From Pomacea canaliculata (taxonomy: Eukaryota > Mollusca > Gastropoda > Architaenioglossa > Ampullariidae), in assembly GCF_003073045.1 (NCBI RefSeq), contig NC_037597.1, positions 10,389,217-10,453,216 of the forward strand: 64,000 bases of DNA, written 5' to 3'. A model generated the notes under the pieces. That model saw nothing but the letters and a program-made list of their open reading frames with translations, ran no database searches and had not been told where the DNA came from. This document shows positions 2,170-25,865 of the stretch, in pieces (position 1 is the stretch's first letter; each line of letters begins with the position of its first letter). The position numbers and the translations under genes are program-made.

Positions 2170-3750
2170 AGCACTTCATCTCAAACGATGCTATCTTTCG
2201 CTCTTGGTCTGTCAGCAATGTACAAGTCTCACTTTCTACAGCAAGACTGGGACAAAAGACTCAATTCGGTTGCAAAAAAGACGTTTGTGCTGCTCAAAAT
2301 TCTGTTCAGTCTTGTCATTGCCACTGTCGCGGCTGTGATCTATCAATGAACATCTTCTGCGCTACCACTGTCACTAGTTAGGGTCGAGCTGACATATTTG
2401 AAGCCTGAACCTGTTCCCCATTCAACTTGATGTAGCCTTTACCAGGCATTTGCTATGACCTTGCTCTTTCGCTCTTCTCCATTCCATACTCTTGTGCACA
2501 TGCGTCTAACTTGTCTGTTAGAGACTGTAATTCACTGCTGTTGCCCGCTATCAGGTCTATTCCTCTGCAAAGAGGAGGTTACTTGGTCTTCCTCTGATCA
2601 AGATGGAGGATTTGTGGTCTTCTAACTTATTACGCATCACTTTCTCTAGGTAGATGTTGAACAACACTAGAGAGAGAAGGCAGCCCTGGCAAACACCTAC
2701 AGTAGTGGGGAAGGACTCCCCCACCTGGCTGTTGAGCAGGACAGAACTTCTGGACCCATCATACAGAGCTTTGATGTTCAGGATGAGACCCTCATCCACG
2801 CTGTATGATCGCAGTACATTCCACAGACCTTTGTGGCAGATTCCATCAAAAGCCCTTCTGAAGCCAACAAAGTTGTGGTAAAGAGCTTTACTATGCTGAA
2901 GGTGCTTTACTACCATTGCTCTCACTCTGAAGACGTGTTCGATTGTCTTGCGGCCAGCCTGGAATCCGGCTTGTTCTTCAGCTAATATCTCTTCCACAGC
3001 CGCTGTCAGTCAGCATTGGAGTACCCTAAGCATAACCTAGGTTGATTGTTTGATAATTCTCGCATTTGCAACTGTTGCCCTTCTTTGGCAAGGGCACTAC
3101 CAATGACTGCAACCGATCACGTGGCCACTTCCTGGTTTGCCAGATTTTGCGACATATCATCGTGAGCACTTCCGTCAGTCCTCACCTCCTTTGATAAGTT
3201 CCAATGGGGCATCACTGAACCCTGCAGCTTTTAGGGCCTGCTTATCAATATTGCTGCCTTGACTTTCGCTCTCAGGACTTGTACGTCCTGGAGTATTGTC
3301 TTCTGATAGCTGCACCATATCTAGAATGTTTTCATCTGTTTTGATTGGCGCATTTATAGCTCATCTCAATACTCTGGGAATCGATTGAGGACGTCCTTTT
3401 GCTTGGACAACAGGCGACCCTGTTTGTCCTCAATCTTCACCTTTTTACTTAATGGCCCATCACACGAGAGAGTGCAAACCAGACTGAAAGCCTATGTGAA
3501 GTCATCCCATTTCATACCATTATCGATTTCCAAACATCTGGCTTCCCTGACAGCCTTGATATTCTTTCACACCTTGCGATGGACTTTCCTGTATGCCTCA
3601 TCTGCCTCAGGACTCGTTCGCGTTTGAAGTCTCAGTTTCTTCTTTGTTCACATCGCTCCAGGACCTCCTTTGTGATCTAGGGTGATTTGGTCGACTTCTT
3701 TCTCCCCAGCATTTTGTCTGGCAATGATACGAGTACCTCTTTGATCTATA
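2170..3750 (-). mobile_element. Non-LTR retrotransposon (LINE) remnant, minus strand
   Basis: The best preserved part, 2997-2557, reads as an RT palm/fingers segment: EEQAGFQAGRKTIEHVFRVR, then LYHNFVGFRRAFD, then TTVGVCQGCLLSLVLFNIYL, ending LLFAEE where an active enzyme has FADD. Upstream on the same strand, fragments such as IEDKQGRLLSKQKDVLNRFP (near 3400) and AYRKVHRKV (near 3590) fit the linker between endonuclease and RT. Downstream, YIKLNGEQVQASN and ATVAMTRLNRI (2430-2310) fit the region after the catalytic motif. Frame changes, stops and the FAEE substitution make it inactive. No intact ends or endonuclease were found. The clade is not assigned. Confidence 0.8.
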
Positions 3751-5751
3751 ATTATCAGCATCATGCACAGGCAAAGCCCCATCTCATGTTTATCTGTAAA
3801 GTTGGCTTTAAACTTCTCAAGCTCTCCATAAAGTAAAAGCTAATTATTAGTCAGCAAACAGATGCATGAAACTGCTTCTGTATTTAGGTCTTTCAGCAAA
3901 GTGAGGCAAGAGGAGCATATTCTGAGTAAGACAATAAATTAAAAAAATTTATATATGACAAAAAAAATATGAAGGATAAAATAACAGTGGAAATGGTTAC
4001 ATTCCCATTTTGATTAATTTTGTGCTCGACACTCCTATACTCACTACTTCTTGTTCAATTACCATCCACAAGTGCACATTGTAGCTGGAATGCTTATAAA
4101 GGATTACAACATATCTTCCGATAGTCATGGTTTGAGCTGTATAACTGTTGGCATAATCCAATTGTAGATCAACTAATAAATAATTTCAACAAAAGGAGAA
4201 TATTATAGAAAAGGGGCATTGTGATCATCTTGAATATGCAATCTGAGGTTTATTTCAGCATCTTCTTACAGGTCAAAAATGGGAAAGTGGTAATCATTAT
4301 TTCTAGTCTGTTTATTTTTTTTTTTTAAATATCTTTTACTTTTCATGTTAAAAGCCATACTTCTGAGAGTAGTTGTCCTTTAAAATCTGAAAAAATGTAT
4401 GGTCTCTGCGATAATGAATCTGGTCAACATAGAGTATTTTCAAACTTAAATAAACTGCTGTTTCACAAAGGGATCATAAACAGCTGCTATGAAAAGTCTT
4501 TGAAAACATTCAAAAAACTGACTTTGATACTCATGTAGAACGACAAATAAATCTGGCAATGACTGTACACTGCCATCATTTTACATGTTGTGCTATACTT
4601 TATTATGAAGGTGTGCATGTTTATAAAAATTTAATCTTGCTTTTAGCACCCATTTCACCTGTCATCTTGGGACTGGGAGAGGGTCTGTGATGTTACTGAG
4701 GTTCCTTGTTCTTCCATTATCTGGACCAGTACATGCAGTGAACACTCACATGTTCTGCAATTTAAATAAAATACACTAAACATGCAAAGCATGCGATTTT
4801 TAGTATGCTATAAAAAGTTAAGCCAAAAATTAGAAAATTGCAATATTTGTCACCATCACTTTGAAGTATAATGGACAACTAATGATGATGGCATGCTGTA
4901 AGCAATTATACCCAAAGTACACATAACTTTGAATCAATACTGTGATTTTGTGTGAATGCAGTTATCTGTTACCATGCAAGAGAACCTACTAGTGTGTTGT
5001 ACATTTAATTATCTTTCATCTGCTTGTTTACAATAAAATAAGGCACACCTTGTTGAGGGAGGGAAGGAACTGCCTTTGCATGCTACTATGAAAAGAATGC
5101 ATAAAAATGACCAATTTACTGAGGGAGAAAGACAGGAAAAGACCAAAGCAAAAATAATAATAAATCAAGAAATATTGGTTTCAGCTATAAAAATTTGATA
5201 CATGCTATACTAAGCATTTAACCAGATTACAGAAAGAAAATAATAGTCATATAGTGACCTCTAGTCTTTATTCCTAAACAAGTATTTTTTTCAAAAAAGA
5301 CAAATCTTATGACTATTACAATGCTATTTTCTTTGGTAAATTGTGACAAAATGAAAATATATACTACTTTTTAAAAAAGAAAAAAGGCATATGTTCAACA
5401 TAAAAATACTATTTCTAAGCAACTGTCTGAACAATGTAGTGCTTCTTTACTTTGGTGTGTATTAATTGATGAAATTGTACCGAAAAATAGTCTAGCCTTT
5501 TATCACGCACTTTGCATAGTTGATCTTTATGCAGCCATTGTTGCTTAAATTATATACCATCTACAAAAAAATGTAAGGCACAATGAGGATCTGAAATATA
5601 TTTGCTTCTGAAATAAATAAGTCACTAACATTGTTTGGTGTTGCTCTTTGAATTATATGGCTACTGAAAAGATTTTGATCTCTCAGTAACATAAAAGACT
5701 GATTTTGCAAAATAAACAATCAAATAAATTTATTCTTTATTCCACTACTGG
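3751..5751. other. Non-coding AT-rich stretch
   Basis: No open frame, RNA gene or repeat structure was recognised between the LINE remnant and the small hAT element. Confidence 0.5.
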
Positions 5752-5889
5752 CAGGCCTGTCCTTAGCCCCCGCGGGGCCTGATGCATAAGGCATGTGCAG
5801 GGCCCTGAACACCACAATCGCATGGTTTTAAGCAAAAGCACGGGGCCCTAGGCAGATGCCTCATCTATCTGTTCCTAAGCATGGCCCTG
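5752..5889. mobile_element. hAT-like MITE, 138 bp, with 8-bp target duplication
   Basis: The element begins CAGGCCTGTCCTTAG and ends with the inverted form of CAGGGCCATGCTTAG, imperfect 15-bp terminal inverted repeats. It is flanked by ACTACTGG (5744-5751) and ACTAATGG (5890-5897), an 8-bp duplication with one mismatch. Eight-bp duplications and CAG-starting termini are hallmarks of the hAT superfamily. It is GC-rich in an AT-rich setting and has no coding capacity. The divergence of termini and duplication suggests an old insertion. Confidence 0.7.
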
Positions 5890-5897
5890 ACTAATGG

Positions 5898-6689
5898 CAT
5901 ATGATCAATATACTGATATCAACATCCCAAACTAAGCTAGACAGCAAATGACACTAATACAAATGTAAACTTTAAAACAGATGCCATTGCTAGGACGTTT
6001 CAAATTAGCTGTTGTGATCTAACAGGATAATTAGTATACACATCAAAGACCTGTGATGCTATAATTCTGGAATTATAAGATAAAATCATCAACACGTCTG
6101 TGAACAATTTCACGTGTGTGTGCACGCACTTACCTAAACAGTTGTTAGGCAGTCTCAAGCTTTTAACTTACTGCTTACATATTTCCCTAAATTTTTAGAG
6201 TTCACTTCGCTTTTAGGCATGAAAGTTCATAACTAACACGTTTTACGTTAATCATAATGCACAAATGTGGCATTGGAAAAGCCTTCCAATCCTTAAAGAC
6301 ACGAGATAGTTGTTTGATTACACTGATGATTACATTAACAGTGTCAAAAGGGTCCTCCCACTCATTTTGTTGCGGCCAAGTTGTAAGTAGTTAATGACAT
6401 GCTGATAAGCTTATACATGCGTTCCTCAAATCAGAAACGAGATGAATCGGTTGAGCCACTTAAAAAGTGCAATGAAATATCGATTTAAAAAAAAATCATT
6501 TAAAAAAAGCTCACGTACAAAAATCCTGATAGTTTCTTCTGTCAGCAAAATAGAAGAAGCTGGCCGCCCAAGCCCACTGCTCTGAGCGAGGAATTCTTTT
6601 ATCCAACTCTTAAATGTGATGGTAGTGGCTGCTCCTGAGCGCAAAATTATCAAATAGTTGATATGGGTAACAATATTTTTAGGTCAACG
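5898..6689. other. Intergenic DNA upstream of EIF5
   Basis: No gene is recognised. A minus-strand open frame at 6426-6653 is low in complexity and has no family resemblance. Confidence 0.4.
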
Positions 6690-6835
6690 CTGAGAATAAG
6701 AAACCTGATAGGGAAACAATGTAACTTTCCTACTTCCTCCCATCGAGTCATCAACTAACATGGCGGCTGAAAAGTTCGTATTTTCTCGCGTTATTTCTTA
6801 ACGCAATCGTGACATCGCGAGCCTAGTTTGCATAC
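6690..6835 (+). promoter_or_regulatory. Probable EIF5 promoter region
   Basis: Just upstream of the predicted first leader exon lies a pyrimidine-rich stretch (CTTTCCTACTTCCTCCC) resembling the TCT/TOP initiators of translation-machinery genes. It is followed by AACATGGCGGC, a good match to the YY1-type ATGGCGGC element common near such promoters, and several CpGs in an otherwise CpG-poor area. The transcription start is inferred. Confidence 0.4.
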
Positions 6836-8568
6836 GGGTACTTTCTGCATACTACCACCTGAGGTGAGACATCTGGCAATACGGTTACTTCGTCTAAAGA
6901 ATATTTTCTTAAGCTTTTATGTTTACGTAAAACTAATGTTTGAAGATATGTTTTCATCTTTTATTAACTTTACAGCATTTGTGTTTTCAGGTTTGGTCCA
7001 AGAGGTCCTTTGTCAAGGACATAGGCCTACATATTCCGTCGCATATTTTTGCTTGCAACTTGGGACTCGTATCCCAGGATATTGGCTAGTGCCAGTTCAA
7101 TATTTCTGCTCGTTTTCTCCACCGTATAAGGTTTTATGACGTTTTTGCGTCAAATCGGTAAGTATGTGTGTAGTTAATAGCATTTTTGCTTTCTTTTAAT
7201 AAATCGAACACGACTTCTTGCATCATGTCGCTCTACCCCAGACAGTCCGCCATATTTTTCGTGGCCACGTTCAAGCACGTGTGTATCACTACATGAAAAT
7301 GTGATTACGCCCACGATTTATGTTTAAGTTATTTTTTAAAGAAATTATATTGTAATAACATTGACATCTTTTCATACCGTGTTAAGAGGTGTTCATATTT
7401 TATTTGAAAGATAAATTATATATTGTTCTGACCCTGCCTCCTCGATTCAGAGTTGAAGCTGTTGAAGTGGGCAGGTTATTTATTTTTTGGTTTCCTGTTG
7501 ATCTAATGTCAGAATTAAAGAGTACTTAAAATTGCTGCCGTTTTGACGTGTAAATCTATAGTTTATAACAGGGATAAAGGTCTACTTACAAGTTTTGTAC
7601 TGATTGCGCAAATTTTAAAAATATGTTAGCCCACAGATAAATCGAAAGCAGAAGTGCACGTTGTGCTTATATAGTGCGCGACTGAAATGTAATTAAAACT
7701 AGACTTTCTTGTGTTTTGATAGTTCTTTATTGGCTGAGCCTTGGCATAGGTTTCTTCCAGTTTACACAACAAGTGGGGTGCTATTTTTGTTCTTATAGAC
7801 TAGATACAGCGTAGTTCAAGATCCTTCCCTAGATTGGGGTAAATATCTAGCACACACATTTTTCAATGCTTGAGATACATGCCTACAAATATAATAAATG
7901 TGCAATTTACATCGCATTTGATAATGTTCCTGTAGAAGCATGCTTTCAGTACTTAAGACTAAAGATGTGGGCAACATACAATGAACGGAAGTACAGTACT
8001 TACAAGTAATAAAAGAACAAACGTTGAAAGTGCAAGGAAGAATCAGGTAATAAACAATAATGGCAGCGTGAGTTATGTGAATCAGCAAAATCTGTAGACA
8101 TACTCAAAAAGAGGTCAGTGGTACAAACATTTACTTTGTGAATCTTCGGCCAATGGAAGACATGAGAATTAGGCATATTGTGACACATGAATTTGATCTC
8201 TTTCTGTGTGTGACAGTGCTTCTCAGGAATGGAAGAAGAAGATTCATTCAGATGTGGGGTAACAGTATCTTGCACATGGCTTTACCCAGTCATCAGAAGG
8301 GGGCAGGGGTGTTTACTCCTCAGTAGTCCTTAAAAGACAAAAGATATTTTTGGGTGTTGACTTTTGGTGTCACTCTTATCAACTCTTTTTTACTTATGTT
8401 TGCAGGGCCCCTGTTGAGGCAAGCAAAAACCATTGCGCCCTTGAATTTAGAGTTTTGGAGTTTTAATACTCCAGGAGCTTTTATGAAGTTCTCTGCCACT
8501 CTCACGTATTGGAGAAAACCCCACTGTAGTATTCACAGAAAGCGTAAACCTTACCAAATAATCCAAAC
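6740..8568 (+). other. EIF5: EIF5 5' untranslated exons (predicted)
   Basis: Splice signals suggest three leader pieces. The first runs from about 6740 to 6863 and ends at a strong donor (CTGAG then GTGAGA). The second runs from 6991, after a TTTTCAG acceptor, to 7157, before GTAAGTATG. The third runs from 8406, after a pyrimidine-rich TTTGCAG acceptor, into the first coding exon. The start of transcription and the use of the middle exon are inferred from sequence signals only. Several short upstream ATG frames occur; the last overlaps the main start codon and is listed separately. Confidence 0.5.
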
Positions 8569-8635
8569 ATGGCCATCAACATTGACCGATCCAACATGGA
8601 CCAGTTCTACCGCTATAAGATGCCTCGGCTCTTAG
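8483..8635 (+). promoter_or_regulatory. Upstream ORF overlapping the EIF5 start codon
   Basis: A 50-codon frame (begins MKFSATLTYW) opens at 8483 in the same exon as the EIF5 start and ends with TAG at 8633-8635, beyond the EIF5 ATG at 8569 and in a different frame. Its ATG has T at -3 and A at +4, a poor context, whereas the EIF5 ATG has an optimal context. Ribosomes that initiate here cannot reach the eIF5 start. Animal and plant eIF5 mRNAs are known to carry inhibitory upstream starts in poor context that let eIF5 repress its own synthesis. The arrangement is read directly; the regulatory role is inferred from that precedent. Confidence 0.7.
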
Positions 8636-11600
8636 CCAAGGTAAAAGATGCATCTTGGATGCAGAGTCCGTTTGTGTCAGAAAAAACAAGTCAACATTTG
8701 AAAAGAAATCTCAAGGAAATATGCTACAATTTTTAAAATGCTGAAGTAAAATTAATTGATATTAGCCAAAAATTGACTAATGGATGTGAAATGTTTTTGT
8801 TGTTAATTTGAATAGCACTAATTGTGCTAACACATTGTCTTTCTGCTGTACATTTACAAATCCTGTTGAGGCCGACATTTCAGTCAGCTGTGATAATATT
8901 AAAACAATTTAAGGCACTTTGCCATGGTTGCAACAAGAGCTTGTATATTTAGACTGGTAAAAGCGTAAAGTTAATGGAATCCAAAACAGGATTGGCTATT
9001 AAAAAGAAGTATGGAATGAGACTAAACAAAAGGTTGGCAGATTTACATATCATTAAGAAGGAAGCAGTAGATCTGTTGAATTTCATATGCATCTCCAGCT
9101 TGAAGTTACTGTCCACTGTACAGATATATAGAAAAAGTGAAATTGTTTTGTTTTGAAATCCTACAATATCGCTGAAGGAGCACTAAAGACAGAGATCGTG
9201 GACTAGAAGAATAAAGTATATCCTGGTAAAAGTCCAGAAATTTGTTCTGGTTGTACTACAATGTGAATTGTTTTTCCAAGGAGCAAAGAGTTTTTAGTGG
9301 GGAGGGTAGGCAGAAATGAGTTTGATTATGACTTTCAGACCTTGCATTTTAAAAAATTTTACTAAACATGTGCTCTTTTGTTTTAATTCTTGACACGTGC
9401 TATGTGTTTGTAAATATCACTGATCTGTGTAGGTGGAGGGCAAAGGAAATGGAATAAAGACTGTGATTGTCAACATGGTGGAGATAGCAAAGGCGCTTTC
9501 CAGGCCACCAACTTGTAAGTGTCTCGTGTTAGTGTCATGATATGCAATATTCCTTACTTTTATCTTAAGTGATAAGTGCATGTTTCCCTCACTGATACCT
9601 TAAATCTATGTTGCTGCAAAAGTAGAACACCTGTTAACCTAACTGGTGATATAAAGAAATACGCACAATGCATTTAATTTATTTACAGAGGAAAATGCAA
9701 GGACAAAAATCTGCTTTACCTCTTGCACTTGAAATGTGAAATGGAATTTGTTGTGTGAATGATCACAAGGGACTGCTGCCTCATTGTTGCATAGTGCAAT
9801 ATAGTACATTCAAGAGACAAGGCTCATACCATGTATTCCGATCAGAAAATCTTTCAACCATTAGGGTTAATGCAGAGCACTACCAAGAGAATACCAAGGA
9901 CATCATGGTGACCTATTGTGGGGAGGTGTTATACTAAACTTTCACGTGCTAAGCATCTGTTTTTAGAACTACGAGATCAATCTTTAGAGGAAAACTGACT
10001 GCTTCCAAGACCCTTTCCTCTAAATGCATGTTGTTTGGTTTTAAACTGACAAAACAGCTGCTTGATGGTCACAAACATTGAGCACAATATTTTCTTACGC
10101 TGTCTGCAAACTTTCGATGAGATCTTTGCTGTTGATGCCAAACGATAGGATAGGTTGGTCCTGGCCTTTCAGGTAACCCACTGCTGGCAAGGTGTGGGAT
10201 GTGTGGCAGCATGGGAAATAACCTAATAGTGTTCATCATAGGAAAATCAAGTTGTCAGAATCAGTAAAATGCACTATTTAGGATTCTTGTGTTCATTTCA
10301 GACCCCACCAAGTACTTTGGTTGTGAACTGGGTGCTCAGACTCAGTTTGATGGCAAAAACGATCGATACATTGTTAACGGATCCCACGATGCAGAAAAGC
10401 TTCAAAATCTGCTTGATGGCTTTATAAAAAAGTTTGTGCTTTGCCCAGAATGTTCAAATCCAGAGACCAATCTCGTAAGTGAATTTATGTGGCTTATCGG
10501 TTAAGTGTGTATACTTGCATATTGGTAATCTAGGTGTTAAAATTATGCTTTAAACTGCGTTTTTTCCTTCTCTCTACATAGATTGTATCCACAAAGAAAC
10601 AAACCATTCAGCAGCGTTGCATCGCTTGTGGTAACAATAGCAATGTTGACATGCGCCACAAACTTACCACCTTTATCCTTAAGAACCCCCCAGAAATGGT
10701 AAGTTATGCTGAATTTTTTTGTTTACCCTTATCCAACATTTGCCAAGTTTATAAATAGGAAAAAGTTTTTAGCTTTTTTGTCAAGAAAGGAATCACTTTT
10801 ATTCTGGTGGTTTTTTTGTTTTTTAAACATTTTCATTACTACTTTGCTACTTAAAAGAAAGCTGTTAAAATTAACAGTTGTTCGCTTTGCGCTAAATCAT
10901 AACTTTTTGATTTTGTGGAATTGCTTAGGATCCACAAACTCAAACACCAAGCAAAGGCAAGAAGTCGAAGAAGGATAAGGTAAGTTTTATAACATACACT
11001 TGCTAGTTATGGTAGGTATAAGTAACGCATGATCTACAACACATATTGTGAAACACTGAGGCTGGAAGTCCCAATTTCAGTTGACAATCGGTGAAAGTTT
11101 TTTCTGTAAAGGTGAAACATCATGTCTATGAACCAATTTTTTTCATTATTATTAAGATGTTTCTTGTTACGCCTGCTTGGGGTGAGATTTGAAATCATTT
11201 ATTTTAGTGTACCATTGCAACATGAAAATCCACATTTACAGACGTGCTAAGCCATTTGCTGTAAAATTTTCCAATGCTTGTGTGCAGAAGGATGAATCAG
11301 ATCGTCACAGCCCAGAAGCCAACACTCAGCAGCAAATGGCTGCCCAGCGTGCATCAGGTGGTAACATTGATGTACCACCTGAGGTAAACATTTATTGTTA
11401 GCTGATAGTACTTTGCTTTTGTTTTTTATCTCAGCTTGGTGTTTGTACTTTCTTAAACATGTAATACATTCGTCCTTATACATCTTGCTAAATGCTTTTT
11501 GCTGATTTTTTTATGTAAGGCTTATGTGGAGTGATAATTGCTTATGATAATAATGCATACATTGCTTAAGCACACCTGTACTGACCTCATTGTTAAAGAC

Positions 11601-14600
11601 TGGGGTAGGGGTAATGATCAGTTTTTAAGTTCTTTAAAATATATCTTTCTCTGGGGCGAATAATCGGAATCTGCTTTTTTATTATTATTATTATTTGCAG
11701 AATGCTGAAGCTGCAGACGATGACTGGGGTGACGAAGTCAGTGAGGAAGCAGTAAAGCAGCGGATGGAAGAACTGTCTGGTGCAGCAAAAGGCCTCGCTC
11801 TCACTGATGATTTAGAAAAGACAGACAAGGATCGCTTGGACATAGTGTATCAGCTAGTCAAGGTCAGTCTGGGGTTGGGAAATATTTTTATCTTTTAGTG
11901 CTGGTGCGGGGTATCTAAATAGTCACTGCATGTCAGTTTTAAATGCAATGTTTCAATTTACAAAAAGTGCTGTGTTGCTTTAAGGCAAGAAGTAACTTGA
12001 GACATTAATGGTTTTTAGGCTGACCTGGTGAGATTTAAAATAACATCACTGGTATACAACACGTGGTTGATGCATATTTGCAGAAATATGTTTTGATACT
12101 AAATAAATCTGTTGCTAACATGTATCTTCACTATTTTTCTGAAAATGGCTCAGCCATGGTTACGCACCTGGCAATAAAGAGATGTACATCCTGTCCCCTA
12201 ATTTGCCGTTTGAGCGAAATGCCCAAGCTATAAATAGTTCTGAAACTGTTTCAAGTTTTATGCCTCGTCTTTCTGTGAATCACTCATGCCTTTAGCAGTC
12301 TGTTGTCAGCAAAAGGGCTTTAAAAAAATTTTTCCTTCTCCGTAGTGCTAAATGCACAGTTAATGAATACTCTTTATGTGTGTGAATAATCTTAGTGGGA
12401 GAAAATATTTTCAAAAGTTGCATCAACTGTGCAGAAAAAAAATGTTGGGAAATGCCTTGTATGCAAATGATGGTTTGGTTTGGGTTGTTTTTAAGTTAAT
12501 TCTGATCACAAAATTTTGGTATTGTTTTGAAACTTCATGAATTGAATTGTGATAATGAAAAATAATGCAGTTTTAATAAGAAATATCAAGGGTGATAAAC
12601 ATATATTCCTATGGAATTTTTTGGGCTCAAGATATTTGAAAAAATATTTTGTCTTGTTTATGGGTAAATAACCATGTTCAGTTGCTTATATCTCCTGGAC
12701 CTATTGAGATATCAGAAACTTCTTAGATCATCATAAGAGATGCCTCCCTGGGGCTAGTTGCACAACATGTTTTGAAAACCTTTAACTATTCAAAGGAAAT
12801 TTTAAATCATTTTTACAAAATAACTCCTGTGCCATAAAGATATGTTTCTTAAGAGCATTCTAAAATTTGTGCTGAAGGGAACAGAAATCTGGTTTAAACA
12901 GTTTTATTTTAGCTAAAACAGTTTTCAGTGGGGAAAAGTTGTAAAATTGTCCACTTTGTCTTCTGAACTAGATTTAAGGCCTAAGTATGTTGTGTAACTG
13001 GCCTGATCAGACGTGTGTGCACTTGGCCGTGTTGGTCACCTTGTTTTCTTTTTCAGCTTTTGTATATTAAAGCCTTTGGGTAAATCTTGTAAACAATGTA
13101 TCATATCAAATCTTATATCAGAGCAAGCATCAAAGTGGGGAACTGAAGAAATGCATTAAAGAGGTGGGGATAGAAGCCGAGCGGCTAGAGGTGACGGACA
13201 AACTGCCCTTGATTCTGGTGGAAGTTCTGCTTACAGATAAAGTACTGACACAGGTCAAAGAGTACAGTGTCATTTTCCGTATGGTAACTATCAAATTTTT
13301 GTGGCTTTGCTTTGAGAAAAATTGCAAGAACATATCAATGGTTACAGAGGTTTTTTAGCCCATGGCATGCATTTTCTTGAAGTTTCAGAGACTTCAAAAT
13401 CATACTGCTTTAGATTTCCTTATGTGATATTTGTGGTCTCATATTTTAACTTTTGCCTGTTAATGCCTGTCGGCATGGGGTTTTTGTTTTTTGGGTTTTT
13501 TTTTTAGGAAATTACTTAAGTCTGCCTTTAATCATTGTAAATTCTCTTATTAGACTAGTTTTACAAGGAGATTTAAAAACATGTTTTTCTCAGTTTTGTG
13601 AAGAGAATCATCGGGCTCAAAAATACCTGCTGGGAGGACTGGAGTTGCTAATGGGGAAAGAATATGCAGCTACACTGATGCCACGTGTGCCCCACATCCT
13701 CAAAATCTTCTATGATTTAGACATTCTTGACGAGGAAGTCATTTTGGAGTGGGCCAAAAAGGTCAGCTGTTTTTCTTATTGTCTGTTTTGTTGTTAAGGC
13801 ACTCTTCTTAATGCAAGCTCTGCAGACAGGTGCATGCTTGATCTGAAAGAAGTGCTACATTAATTACCCATGAACCTCTTCCACCACATGCAGTTAATCA
13901 TAAAGGTGGTCATTGCAACATGGCACACTAAATTGGATGCATTTGGATCAAGTGAAATTGTGCCCTATATCTTCTTTAATCCCTAAATTTTAATAAGGTA
14001 TTTTGAGTGACAACTGACCTTTAGTTTGCACGGGAAAATATTCTTGAATGCTTTTGTAACTTGTTTGCAGGTCCTTTAATGATGCTTTTAGGGTCCTCAT
14101 TTTCAATGTGAACCCTGTAATAGGCATTAGTGTAATTCCAAGATTAACACTTTCATATTGAGTAGGGAAGGTGTGCTTGTCCTTTCCTACACCATTGGTA
14201 GAGTTATTTGTTGATCATTGCATTTTTATGAATAGAAAGTTTTTTTATGAATATGCGGCATAAAATAAACAAGCCAGTCATTAGAAAGTGCACTTGACAA
14301 ATCTATAAGGATTTTGTAAGGATTTCATATGTAAAGGCTGTATGATATGGCTTCATTTTCTTCTGCAGAAACTTGAAGGCTGTTAGGACAAGTTTTTATT
14401 TCTCTTGTTCAGTTTCTTTCAGTTGAGTTTTCAAATTCTTTGCACTATTTTAAATCCAAGTATAGCAAATGTGCTTGCTGGGATTGAGAAGTGTGCCACA
14501 TTAGCACCCATGAACCTCTTCCACCACATGCAATTTATCTTGAAGGTGGTCATTGCAACATGGCACAAATGAGTTCTTTCTTTACAGAAGTTGTAATAAA

Positions 14601-16392
14601 TTTGCAGTGTAAATATATAGGTATTCTTTGATATAATAGTAGGGTTTGTTTAGCACGTGTGTTTGTATCTGTGACCCTCCACGACGAAATGAGTCTTAAG
14701 TCGCGCGGAGCAGTTTAGTGCTAGAGGCCCCAAAAGGTGATAGGGGTCAATTTTGTTCACTTTAGCTTTTCTTTTAAAATGGATTCCTTGGTAATTAACC
14801 TGTCGGGAAAATACTAAAAACGATTCAAATATTAACCTATCAAAAGATTTGTCTGCTAAAGTTAAGGAGTAAACAATCCTGGCTGGCCATCTCGACACTA
14901 ATGTTTGAACCCACTTTTCTCAAAATTGCTGCCACCGTATTTTCATACTTCAAACAATTATAACTCACCGGACTGTAGGACAGAAGAACTTTTGTATCAA
15001 AAGACAGTACAGAATCTGCATTTGAAAATCTCACATTTCCAACGCATTATCAGAAATAGAGCGGATACGTGATTCCTTCCTGAGGATTTGCTTCCTAATC
15101 TCTCTTCCTGGACCTTGGAACAGATATTTACAAGGGAGGCAAGACTGTTCCTGTTCCTTAGGGGGAGGTTGTCAAACCGAGGGATGAAAGAAAAAGTGAT
15201 TAGACTTTCAGTGAAGAACTGATAGAACCGAGTGAGGATGACAGCCGACAAAGAAAGATCTGTTTCCGTATGAGGTACAGACGTTGGCTCTTACATAGGA
15301 TCATGTCAGTGTTGATGTCCCATTTAAGTTTGTTAATCAAAGATAGTACCTAGATATTTGTAGGAGTCCACTACCTCAATGGCATCATAATGGATAATGC
15401 CGATGACTGCCTGAGGCCTGTTTGTCCGAAAATCGAAGATCATTTCCTTAGTCTTTGAGACATTCAAGACAAGAAGATGTTCACTATCATACAAAAAGAG
15501 ACTTCAAGGCCGTGTCATCAGCAAATTTTACAAAAAAGCACCCGTTCGTAGTGCTTCTACAACTGTTAGTATGAACAGTAATGGAGACAAGCAAAAGCCT
15601 TGAAGGGAACAAAGGTGACAACAATATTTGAGAGAAGACCGTTAAGAGAAACGCTCTGATGCCTGTTTGTTAAAAGGTCCAGGATCCAGAGAGCTGGTTG
15701 GTGAGACAAATCTGAAACTAAACTCACCGCCTACAAGTGAATGTTACATAGTGCAGAAAAAAATCAGCTAACAGAAGCCTGGCATGATCTGCCTGCAGGT
15801 GTCGGTATAAACATTTGAGCTAAGTGCATAGACAAATAAAATGACTGAAATAAAGTACTTTATGCTGACTTGAGACTTGATTATGATTAATGGTGAGTGA
15901 CCAGTTTGAACCATACTCATTAATTTAAATATGAGCACATTCTTTGTTAGGTTTACAATTTTTAATCTTCCACAACATTAAATTTTTTTTTTCTAAATTC
16001 AGGTAACTAAGAAGTATGTCTCGAAGGAAGTGGCATTACAGTTAAGGGAGAAAGCAAAGCCTTTCACAGATTGGCTTGAACAAGCAGAAGAGGAGGAGGA
16101 AGATGATGATGAGGAGGAAGCTGAGGATGAGGTGCCTTTTCTGATTTATAAATTATTGGTGGTGACTGTCAGTAAATTAATCATATGATTTTCATCTAAA
16201 CAGTTAATTGCTGGTTTGGGTCCTATGTGTATTACCTGGTAAATTAAAAGTTGTTAGCAATCTAGTGAATTTTCATGTTTGTTATAGGTGGTGTACTCAA
16301 CCACTGAAAAGGTTGGAGAGCAGCCAATAGAACCTAAGGCAGCTGAGGAAAATGGAAAAGAAGATGAGGATTTTGACATTGACGCCATTTAG
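8569..16392 (+). CDS. EIF5: Eukaryotic translation initiation factor 5 (eIF5), 11 coding exons, complete
   Basis: eIF5 is the GTPase-activating protein for eIF2 in the 43S/48S preinitiation complex and a partner of eIF1, eIF2-beta and eIF3 in start-codon selection. Coding exons: 8569-8640, 9433-9514, 10302-10474, 10582-10698, 10929-10979, 11288-11383, 11701-11862, 13122-13283, 13594-13761, 16003-16131, 16288-16392. All junctions are GT-AG and keep frame, giving 438 residues (human about 431). The N-terminus contains [11 protein letters not shown], with arginine at position 15, the known arginine-finger site. Next come the [11 protein letters not shown] and NGSH motifs, then a four-cysteine zinc finger (CPEC ... 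CIAC). Exons 5-7 encode a charged linker. Exons 8-11 encode the C-terminal MIF4G/W2 domain with acidic AA-box stretches ([20 protein letters not shown] at the end). The start codon has A at -3 and G at +4, a strong context. Identification is secure; the linker exons are the least constrained part. Confidence 0.96.
12751..13004. mobile_element. MITE-like inverted-repeat element in EIF5 intron 7
   Basis: GGGCTAGTTGCACAACAT at 12751-12768 is matched in inverted orientation by ATGTTGTGTAACTGGCCT ending near 13004, with two or three mismatches. The roughly 250 bases between are AT-rich and non-coding. Terminal GGGC(C/T)AGTT(G/A)CACAA sequences are typical of small non-autonomous DNA transposons in invertebrates. 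No clear target-site duplication is visible, so the superfamily is not assigned. Confidence 0.5.
13808..13930 (+). ncRNA. Candidate intronic H/ACA snoRNA, copy 1 (EIF5 intron 9)
   Basis: A hairpin closed by CAAGC/GCTTG (13814-13818 with 13836-13840) is followed by AAAGAA at 13846-13851, which fits the H box ANANNA. A second hairpin follows, with lower stem GCTA/TGGC (13854-13857 with 13921-13924) and upper stem CCACC/GGTGG. It is followed directly by ACA at 13925-13927 and three more bases, the expected ACA-box spacing. The 3' hairpin is nearly identical to a second intronic copy about 640 bases downstream while the surrounding intron is not conserved. The 5' hairpin is short for the class. 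Vertebrate EIF5 hosts the H/ACA snoRNA SNORA28 in an intron, which supports the host-gene context; orthology is untested. Confidence 0.55.
14453..14570 (+). ncRNA. Candidate intronic H/ACA snoRNA, copy 2 (EIF5 intron 9)
   Basis: This is a paralogue of the copy near 13.8 kb. A 5' hairpin is closed by AATCC/GGATT (14453-14457 with 14481-14485). An imperfect H box (AGAAGT) follows. The 3' hairpin is closed by TGTGCCA/TGGCACA (14492-14498 with 14561-14567) with upper stem CCACC/GGTGG (14521-14525 with 14545-14549). ACA at 14565-14567 is followed by AAT. About 60 bases of the 3' hairpin are almost unchanged between copies, whereas the 5' hairpins differ, suggesting selection on the 3' guide pocket. 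The H box departs from consensus at its last base. Confidence 0.5.
14650..14989. repeat. Unclassified repeat-like intronic segment
   Basis: This stretch between the snoRNA candidate and the LINE remnant has more CpG (for example GTGACCCTCCACGACG) than the surrounding intron and no recognisable coding content. Its base composition suggests an inserted repeat, but no termini or duplications were found. Confidence 0.25.
14990..15745 (-). mobile_element. LINE reverse-transcriptase remnant (CR1/L2/Jockey-like) in EIF5 intron 9
   Basis: Read on the minus strand, this holds a decayed LINE RT C-terminal region. [11 protein letters not shown], the catalytic FADD region, lies near 15513. Downstream come [12 protein letters not shown] and QRLYLIRK near 15330-15260, then [14 protein letters not shown] and [16 protein letters not shown] near 15210-15110. 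Several stops and frame changes interrupt it, so it is inactive. The order of motifs matches the RT tail common in Jockey-superfamily LINEs; the clade is an inference. It is inserted antisense to EIF5. Confidence 0.7.
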
Positions 16393-22900: not shown

Positions 22901-25293
22901 ACATCCATAAATCAGTATCCCTACGGTACTACGAGTGACTTGTACAGATTGTACTTTGCTGCGGCGCCATACCGTCCAACCTTGCTATGGCCACTGTTGC
23001 AGTCGCGGTCCTGATGCGGATATCTGTCGTGGAGCTGCAGTCTTTGGAGAGGGAGGCCTCCAAGTACTAAGGCCGTGCTTTTTTAATGCAGATATCTACT
23101 TTGCTAAAAAGAAAAATACACAAATATAATAAGAATGGATGCTGGTCTCGAAAACAGAATCACTGTTTACTGTATTTGTGACCTTCGGCTATCACAGTTT
23201 ATAGCTGATAGGCATAGGCAACACTGTCAAACTGCTTGATTGACCGTCATCTTGTTTTCTGCCAGTGATGGGAAGGTGATGTCGTGTGTCTGACTTGCTG
23301 GTTGAGATTTGGAACATGCACAATGATTATTACTAATTTGTCTGACATGATTTTTGTCTCTCCTTAGCCTCTTGAATCTATAAACTTTATCAGCTACTAG
23401 TTTAACGAAAGACGTAAGTACAGTAGTCAGGTCACGGGGAAGTGCGGACATAAGACATAGTCAGGTCAAAGGTCTCAAAAACATGTTGGCCTTTTTCCAG
23501 CATCAGTCAGATTAGTGTGAACGGCATATTTCACTGAGCTTCCTGGAATCAATCATTGCAGACTGGTCTGTACTCCACACAAAGCTTTGCTGTGAAAGCT
23601 CGACATTGTGAAGCAGCTGGAGGAAGGCAAACAAGAGTTTGAAGTCGACACTGTCGATACGCAAATCTCACATCTAAGTAATGGCAATATGGCGCAGATG
23701 TGACAGTAGAAATAAATTGGCACATGAAAAAAGATGAAAAGTGGCGCAGACAGAAAACCATCAAGAAACGTAGCAAATATCACAATTGAACTGATGAACA
23801 TTAGACATAAAACTTCACGCAGATCAACGGACAAATATGGATAAGTGTGGGAGAGGAGTCACTTTCGAGCCAGTTGTGCCATATCCCCTCGTGCCAGACT
23901 TTTTTCTGAAGGGGCATGGCTAGTGACTGCATCCATTTTTTGCTTTCCCAGTCTCAGCGATAGAGCTGTAAGGGCTTTTGTTTGTTTGTTGTTTCATCCC
24001 CAGACTGCTTGAGCAGCACAGCTAGAACATTGTCAACGCCAGGTATCTATCCCTTAAGACTACGTATCACTCTTTTGGTCCTTTTGCTGTAAGACTAGTA
24101 GGTTGTTTTGAATGATGTTAGCGTCTGTCTCTTGCTGGAAGTTGTACAAGTGTTTGCCATTTTTAGTCCAGCGGTTCAGTACATAAGTGCCTTCTTTGAA
24201 AAGACGGCTATTTATGTCTTCGATGACTGAGGTGTTGACCTGTCTTGGTCAGGGTATTTCGTAGCTGGTTGGCCTTTTTGCTGTCTATCTCACACATATA
24301 TATATATGCGTGCGTGTAAACTGCGTTCTTGTATACTCGCACCGTAATACTCAGGTTCTTCAGTGACTTCAAGATCCGAAGCGATGTTAGCTGCTAGTTG
24401 TGCGAATCTGTAAAAGGGGGAAAAAATGAACCGTGCTTGCTAGTTAACTACTATGCTAACTACTTTTGAAGACTATGATTAAAACGGACAGCTATGAAAG
24501 AGGGCTTCCGAGTCCCCCTTCAAAACAGGACACTTGCGAAACCGCTACTTATACACTGAACGTGCTAGATACGTCATCATATGTCTTTAGACCAGTTGAG
24601 ACAATCGATGGTAGGCTACGCAGTTTTAGTCACTAATCATCGATGTCATTGATATGTATAAAATCACCGCACTGCCAAGAACCCCTGCATATTGCTGCAC
24701 AAGTCAGTCGTTAACCGATAAGCACTTAAATGCGAAAATAGTATTTTGCTTATCTTTACGAACAATTATTTTGTTTAAATTAATGTTCTAGATTTATACT
24801 CAAACTTTGTGGTTTTGGGTTAGGCGTTGTTGCCTGATTTTCTTTACTTACACAATTCGTGACCAGCAGACTGAATTACAGCGGTAAGATCGGTTATGAC
24901 TTTAACAAAACGTTTTCTTTTGCAGGTCTTTACACATGCGGACCAGTGAGTGGTAAAAACCTTTCCGTTGCTGACGAGATGATGTCAAGGAAGTAACACG
25001 ACTGCAGTTATCGCCACGAACCATGCACGATCGTTCTCGTCAAGCCGGAAGATGCTATGCGGCCTAGTGCAAGATTCATTTTCCGTTATGGATTGCCATT
25101 TAAAATGTTCAACGATGACCATTTGTTGCCGTGAATTTTGACCTAGTATGTTGCACCGTTTTAGCTTTACATCATACTAGCATCTCCAGTTCGATTATTT
25201 CACATCCTTCTCCCCCAAGATCAACTTCAGCATACAAGCCCTTAGAAGGCACCAGCTTGAATGAAGAGTATATCTGTTGCCATCTTTTTTTAG
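19988..25293. other. Long stretch without recognised genes
   Basis: This may be intergenic or a long first intron. A minus-strand stretch near 20520-20660 (GGTTTAGTTAGTAGTGTAGT read from about 20645) vaguely resembles a tRNA-derived SINE head. A short TA microsatellite lies at 24296-24307. Open frames at 20872-21425, 22137-22454 and 23549-23834 have no family resemblance. Confidence 0.35.
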
Positions 25294-25295
25294 AG

Positions 25296-25865
25296 ATGCT
25301 AGGCACTGTGGGTGATAACCCAGTGTACAATGCACATCATGAAAGGCAGTTTTGGGGAATCTGCCTCGCGAGGCAGTCGTCATTAGACCTTCATCCTCAG
25401 CGGACCTTCACCCGTCAAGAAATCAAAAAGCACAACACAGAAGTTGGCTGGAACCAGTGGGTCACACTACGTGGTAATGTCTACGATGTCACGGCTCTCA
25501 GGGAGCACTTCCTCGACTTCATACAACGGAAGAAAGAAGCTTGTGCCACGGAAAAATCTCGGAGGGTCGAGAGGGACGCCTTTCGTGACTCAGACGCGTG
25601 TGGTGTTACGCCGAGAGGTTTTGGTTCAGAGAAAGGAGCTGGATTCTGCCCTCAGAATGGAAACAACGACTGCAGAGGAAACGGAAAGTACTCGTGGAGT
25701 CCGAAGAACGCGACACTGACGTTCTGCAGGAAGGGAGAAGACAACAGCATGCAAAATGATATCCATGCTGAGCTCCGTGAACATCCAGGTGTCTGTGGGA
25801 CGAACTCAAGCAATCTCTGGAACCGTGTGCATCCCAGCGTTGACCAGCTACAACGGGAGCGATAG
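25296..25865 (+). CDS. Uncharacterised protein with cytochrome-b5-like segment (first frame)
   Basis: The open frame, taken from ATG 25296 just after a pyrimidine-rich acceptor-like CATCTTTTTTTAG, encodes FTRQEIKKHNTEVGWNQW then VTLRGNVYDVTALREHF. This resembles the start of cytochrome b5/heme-steroid-binding domains (ordered as Y/FTxxEVxxHN ... W ... GxVYDVT). The heme-ligand HPGG motif expected next is absent (REHFLDF instead), so heme binding is doubtful. From about 25540 the frame becomes less protein-like, while the other forward frames show coding-like composition before the long frame that starts near 25720. This suggests the two frames belong to one gene separated by one or more single-base discrepancies or an unrecognised intron. 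Local GC content is higher than in flanking DNA. Upstream exons are not resolved. Confidence 0.5.
   Translation: MLGTVGDNPVYNAHHERQFWGICLARQSSLDLHPQRTFTRQEIKKHNTEVGWNQWVTLRGNVYDVTALREHFLDFIQRKKEACATEKSRRVERDAFRDSDACGVTPRGFGSEKGAGFCPQNGNNDCRGNGKYSWSPKNATLTFCRKGEDNSMQNDIHAELREHPGVCGTNSSNLWNRVHPSVDQLQRER

Follow-up and report, generated by a model that had tools for sequence, protein, structure and literature searches.

A weak-context upstream reading frame overlapping the EIF5 start codon in the gastropod Pomacea canaliculata, a probable member of the known eIF5 autoregulatory type

Introduction

The EIF5 gene of Pomacea canaliculata is preceded by an upstream open reading frame (uORF) that begins at an ATG in very poor context and runs out of frame across the EIF5 start codon. 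We interpret this uORF as the snail's version of the autoregulatory leader known from other eIF5 mRNAs, a sensor of start-context stringency, and put the probability of this reading at about 75%. Most probably it is an unexceptional example of an already known type of eIF5 uORF.

The stringency of start-codon choice is lowered by eIF5 and raised by eIF1, and many eIF5 mRNAs are reported to contain inhibitory uORFs with poor start contexts, such that more eIF5 leads to more uORF use and less eIF5 synthesis (PMC5823381, PMC3434475, PMC12224906, PMC9082881). Autoregulation of eIF5 through weak uORFs is described as demonstrated in human cells (PMC3426882, PMC9082881), and such uORFs have been termed near universal in eukaryotic eIF5 mRNAs (PMC3426882). 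As to what constitutes a poor context, a purine at -3 is reported to be preferred nearly universally, with U at -6 to -1 disfavoured and A at +4 disfavoured in metazoa (PMC5823381). Ribosome density has been reported on the eIF5 uORF of Cryptococcus neoformans, along with a 2.6-fold increase of the eIF5 transcript in C. deneoformans lacking UPF1, and the eIF5 mRNA of Neurospora is described as an NMD target (PMC7049704).

Here, we describe the anatomy of the snail EIF5 leader, the splice forms in which the uORF is predicted to occur, and how often a leader of this kind arises by chance.

Results

The window, by which we mean the whole 64,000-nt stretch of DNA that was analysed (NC_037597.1, positions 10,389,217 to 10,453,216 of the forward strand), contains an EIF5 coding region at 8569..16392 (+) with 11 coding exons and 438 codons plus stop. 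Its product matches the Pfam families eIF-5_eIF-2B (PF01873; E 1.6e-39) and W2 (E 6.2e-21), and aligns end-to-end from residue 1 with eIF5 chains in the PDB (27 sequences matched, the best with E 2e-144). Its domains, its PDB match and its complete coding sequence identify the gene as an intact EIF5, and the leader in question is that of a true eIF5 gene. Two similar stretches, 13867-13926 and 14507-14566, both of which start with CCCATGAACCTCTTCCACCACATGCA and end with AAGGTGGTCATTGCAACATGGCAC, lie in the intron that separates the EIF5 exon end at 13761 from the exon start at 16003.

The uORF occupies 8483..8635 (+). Its ATG, at 8483-8485, lies in the context GCTTTT-ATG-AAG (GCTTTTATGA), with T at all positions from -4 to -1 and A at +4, and it opens 50 codons that close with a TAG at 8633-8635. 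The EIF5 start codon at 8569..8571 (+) is in strong context (CCAAAC-ATG-GCC, with A at -3 and G at +4), the uORF frame differs from the EIF5 frame where the two overlap, and 8483 is the sole uATG within 8406-8568. An earlier note on this DNA had claimed just these properties, namely a 50-codon frame with a weak start (T at -3, A at +4), a strong EIF5 start, and an out-of-frame overlap ending 64 bases after the EIF5 ATG, and the sequence bears them out. The interval that it gave for the feature, 8483..8640, has the correct start but extends too far, as the uORF ends at 8635 and 8640 is the end of the exon (donor 8640|gtaaaa). A poor upstream start (GCTTTT-ATG-A) is thus set against a good main start (CCAAAC-ATG-G), in an arrangement that is inhibitory as judged by its layout alone, with the overlap reaching 64 nt past the main ATG.

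The proposal in the earlier note that this overlap acts as a strict switch is logically sound: reinitiation at 8569 would need backward movement and is therefore unlikely, and the next in-frame EIF5 AUG past the uORF stop is codon 39, from which initiation would yield an N-truncated protein. The length of the overlap is without a sign of selection, because in 56% of 20000 synonymous recodings of the first EIF5 codons the +1 frame is open equally far. Just 3' of 8483 the local fold has no stable structure (z +0.73, +0.50). A hairpin of 13 pairs is predicted at 8449-8481, ending right before the uATG, and is mildly better than shuffled sequences (z -1.37, with 24/200 as good).

The product of the uORF could itself be the active element, either by stalling ribosomes or through a function of its own. 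The human EIF5 uORF is counted among conserved-peptide uORFs (PMC7530721), and the eIF5 uORF of plants is likewise described as encoding a conserved peptide (PMC3426882, PMC2075485). However, in a human reporter study 8/17 conserved-peptide uORFs were sequence-dependent, and EIF5, which was tested, is absent from the eight named in the consulted portion of that paper (PMC7530721), which makes action through a peptide less probable. The snail uORF peptide is moreover without a Pfam match, and the final 21 codons of the uORF fall within the coding sequence of EIF5. We give a peptide action very little chance. When the peptide was searched against the snail's own genome, with the best candidates scored, it matched its own place only, and in viral contigs four stretches fitted its pattern, of which none was confirmed.

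A single exon at 8406..8640 (+), bounded by an acceptor TTTGCAG|GGCC and a donor AAG|GTAAAA, carries both the uATG and codons 1 to 24 of EIF5. Splice sites were scored with a simple frequency matrix, not a trained model, on which the real EIF5 sites score low and are widely spread (donors 1.2 to 7.9, acceptors -2.6 to 7.5). The acceptor at 8406 scores 8.0, which exceeds all ten downstream EIF5 acceptors and is the best among the acceptors scored in 6500-8500; across the window, sites with a score as high occur at 0.09 per kb per strand. The leader therefore probably extends upstream, and from this acceptor together with a CpG-rich stretch farther upstream the uAUG at 8483 is predicted to be part of the mature mRNA. 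It would lie outside the main mRNA if transcription started, or splicing entered, downstream of 8485, and a weaker acceptor at 8539, with a score of 2.4, does fall within the range of real EIF5 acceptors. Both the high score of 8406 and the distance of the promoter-like stretch argue against such an entry, which we regard as very unlikely.

This CpG-rich stretch, at 6200..7700, is probably the EIF5 promoter. CpG observed/expected is 0.86-1.16 in seven 300-nt intervals starting at 6200-7400, compared with 0-0.36 in those starting at 4000-5800, 0.08-0.5 in those starting at 8000-10000, and 0.63 for the window as a whole. Two donors, at 6863 and 7157, and between them two acceptors, at 6976 and 6991, are located inside it. 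From the splice scores we predict an upstream leader exon at 6991..7157 (+), ending in the donor TCG|GTAAGT, and we infer that it is spliced to 8406. The donor at 7157 scores 4.8 (equally high sites occur at 0.49 per kb per strand) and the acceptor at 6991 scores 3.1, both values that also occur among the sites of the ten EIF5 introns or between their extremes; since the acceptor at 6976 has a similar score (3.5), the 5' edge of the predicted exon is uncertain. The donor at 6863 scores 6.2. Another site resembling an acceptor, at 7799, has a score of 5.1 and so exceeds 6991 with its 3.1.

Joining 7157 to 8406 would bring a second uATG into play, at 7136 (GGTTTT-ATG-ACG). Its frame is in phase with 8483, which becomes codon 34, and the two share a stop, giving a predicted uORF of 83 codons whose first 22 nt are at 7136..7157 (+) and whose remainder is at 8406..8635 (+). 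Both uATGs have the sequence TTTT-ATG-A, and with this second in-frame weak uAUG, 8483 may be an internal start of the longer uORF. If 6863 is instead joined straight to 8406, a TGA, identified by eye, lies just upstream in frame, and the uORF has no start other than 8483. Whichever splice form is used, entry at 8406 retains the uORF from 8483. No retrocopy of the spliced mRNA was found in the snail's own genome: with the best candidates scored, a 484-nt joined query gave matches to its three exons at their own places, with 100% identity for each, and to nothing else.

A further ATG may belong to the leader. At 6757..6801 (+), within the CpG-rich stretch, there is an element, AACATGGCGGC, which we take to be YY1/TISU-like, with a strong-context ATG at 6760 that opens a 13-codon ORF and could lie in a first exon extending to the donor at 6863. 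On both strands of the window, AACATGGCGGC is the only match to AA[CG]ATGGCGGC. If transcription begins upstream of 6760, this ATG may add a 13-codon non-overlapping uORF, and its presence in the mRNA would complicate a simple stringency scheme. The device with a single uAUG described in the earlier note is thus correct in its anatomy but incomplete, as the predicted upstream exon adds a second in-frame and equally weak uAUG (7136), the strong ATG at 6760 may join the leader, and the uORF stop is predicted to be NMD-prone.

The frequency with which such leaders arise by chance was estimated from 4000 leader shuffles with dinucleotides kept, and from real stretches of the window set before the EIF5 coding sequence (n=1410 of 163 nt and n=1405 of 330 nt). 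Some start-overlapping uORF is present in 28% of shuffles and 48% of real stretches for the 163-nt leader, and in 35% and 48.5%, respectively, for the 330-nt two-exon leader, so that overlap by itself is unremarkable. Among shuffles of the 163-nt leader, 2.3% contain an overlapping uORF at least 50 codons long. Leaders in which every uATG overlaps the main start and has a pyrimidine at -3 and no G at +4, a class whose criterion was set post hoc, make up 3.8% of shuffles and 1.3% of real stretches at 163 nt. At 330 nt, which presupposes the predicted exon, they make up 0.3% of shuffles and 0.07% (1/1405) of real stretches. With the strong-context, non-overlapping ATG at 6760 included, the leader leaves this class.

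These frequencies bear on whether the uORF is a passive product of chance, tolerated for its poor start, that slightly lowers EIF5 output and senses nothing. That 28-49% of comparable leaders contain an overlapping uORF, and that overlaps reaching this far are common among synonymous recodings, are in keeping with such an origin. However, leaders whose uATGs are all weak and all overlapping arise more rarely by chance, for both the one-exon and the two-exon form, except that a leader with 6760 is not of this kind, and uORFs with weak starts are reported to be near universal in eIF5 (PMC3426882). We consider a passive origin unlikely. The preferred reading, that of a regulatory uORF, receives modest support from the sequence alone, and most of its weight comes from the identity of the gene.

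We also looked for other arms of the circuit and for relatives of its parts. A SUI1 search of the genome gave four matches, among them an eIF1 gene, in whose matched exon the first usable ATG is at 32588609 of another contig. This ATG has T at -3 but G at +4, and it may belong to a splice acceptor. For a first exon of eIF1, the 10 to 20 kb upstream were scanned and judged by eye, and yielded a few short frames but no eIF1-like candidate. A W2 search of the genome gave five matches. Two are exons of EIF5, and from inspection by eye we take the remaining three loci to be eIF4G-like, DAP5-like and eIF2B-epsilon-like. No BZW/5MP gene was detected in the genome by W2, PF25504 or protein search, and introns may cause such a gene to be missed. 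A piece of the eIF5 zinc domain searched in bacterial and archaeal contigs gave no animal eIF5 and 1/37 confirmed, which is a short piece of bacterial sequence, and in viral contigs 0/11 were confirmed. Elsewhere in the window there is a reverse-transcriptase fragment at 2557-3009 (-) (RVT_1, E 7.4e-12), probably a retrotransposon remnant, and an open frame at 25119-25865 (+) whose weak resemblance to cytochrome b5 does not reach the curated threshold; the window has no Rfam match at gathering score and no tRNA.

Discussion

We propose that ribosomes scanning the snail EIF5 mRNA would encounter one or two uAUGs in very poor context before reaching the main start. When eIF5 is scarce, selection would be stringent, and most ribosomes would bypass the uAUGs and initiate at 8569. 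When eIF5 is abundant, stringency would fall and more ribosomes would start at 7136 or 8483, reading across the EIF5 start to 8635; because uORF translation ends past the EIF5 start, such ribosomes would make no eIF5. The earlier note had supposed that the known eIF5 autoregulatory logic operates here; the layout, with a poor uAUG, a good main AUG and exclusion of the main ORF, does match the published device, and we infer the remainder of the circuit, from uORF translation to its dependence on eIF5.

An mRNA on which the uORF is translated may also undergo NMD. Under the usual exon-junction rule, a stop upstream of junctions triggers NMD, and ten exon junctions lie 3' of the uORF stop, at distances of 5 to 1145 nt, nine of them at 87 nt or more. 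NMD is therefore expected.

Loughran et al. (2012; doi 10.1093/nar/gkr1192) reportedly described autoregulatory weak-context uORFs of eIF5 mRNAs. The snail leader is like these in its gene, its poor uAUG, its good main AUG and its inhibitory layout, and would differ in its two predicted in-frame and matching uAUGs, split by an intron, and perhaps in the overlap of the uORF with the main start. The eIF5 mRNA of Cryptococcus is described as having a weak uAUG and a strong main AUG, as in the snail, and, unlike the snail, as also employing an upstream CUG (PMC7049704). A link to NMD is reported for eIF5 of both Cryptococcus and Neurospora (PMC7049704), whereas in the snail it is predicted from exon junctions only. 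In the autoregulation of eIF1 and BZW1/2 a weak AUG is likewise described as sensing initiation stringency, but there it is the main start and not that of a uORF (PMC5823381). The start-overlapping uORF of ATF4 resembles that of the snail in excluding the main ORF through an out-of-frame overlap, but is reported to sense ternary-complex supply and not start-context stringency (PMC11900008).

A more elaborate form of the stringency sensor is a tentative possibility. Two in-frame and matching weak uAUGs on separate exons, heading one 83-codon overlapping uORF, could form a two-stage sensor in which inclusion or skipping of 6991-7157 sets the number of sensing starts, and in which a stop located 5 nt before an exon junction couples uORF use to NMD. 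If this were true, splicing, start selection and mRNA decay would be joined in one feedback loop.

The level of eIF5 contributes to the stringency of start-codon choice on other mRNAs. No report of a mollusc eIF5 uORF was found in the portions of the literature searched, and the gastropod case would carry the known eIF5 feedback loop into the molluscs. The predicted doubled weak start, split by an intron, would offer a natural test of whether the number of weak starts, the overlap and NMD each add to the feedback.
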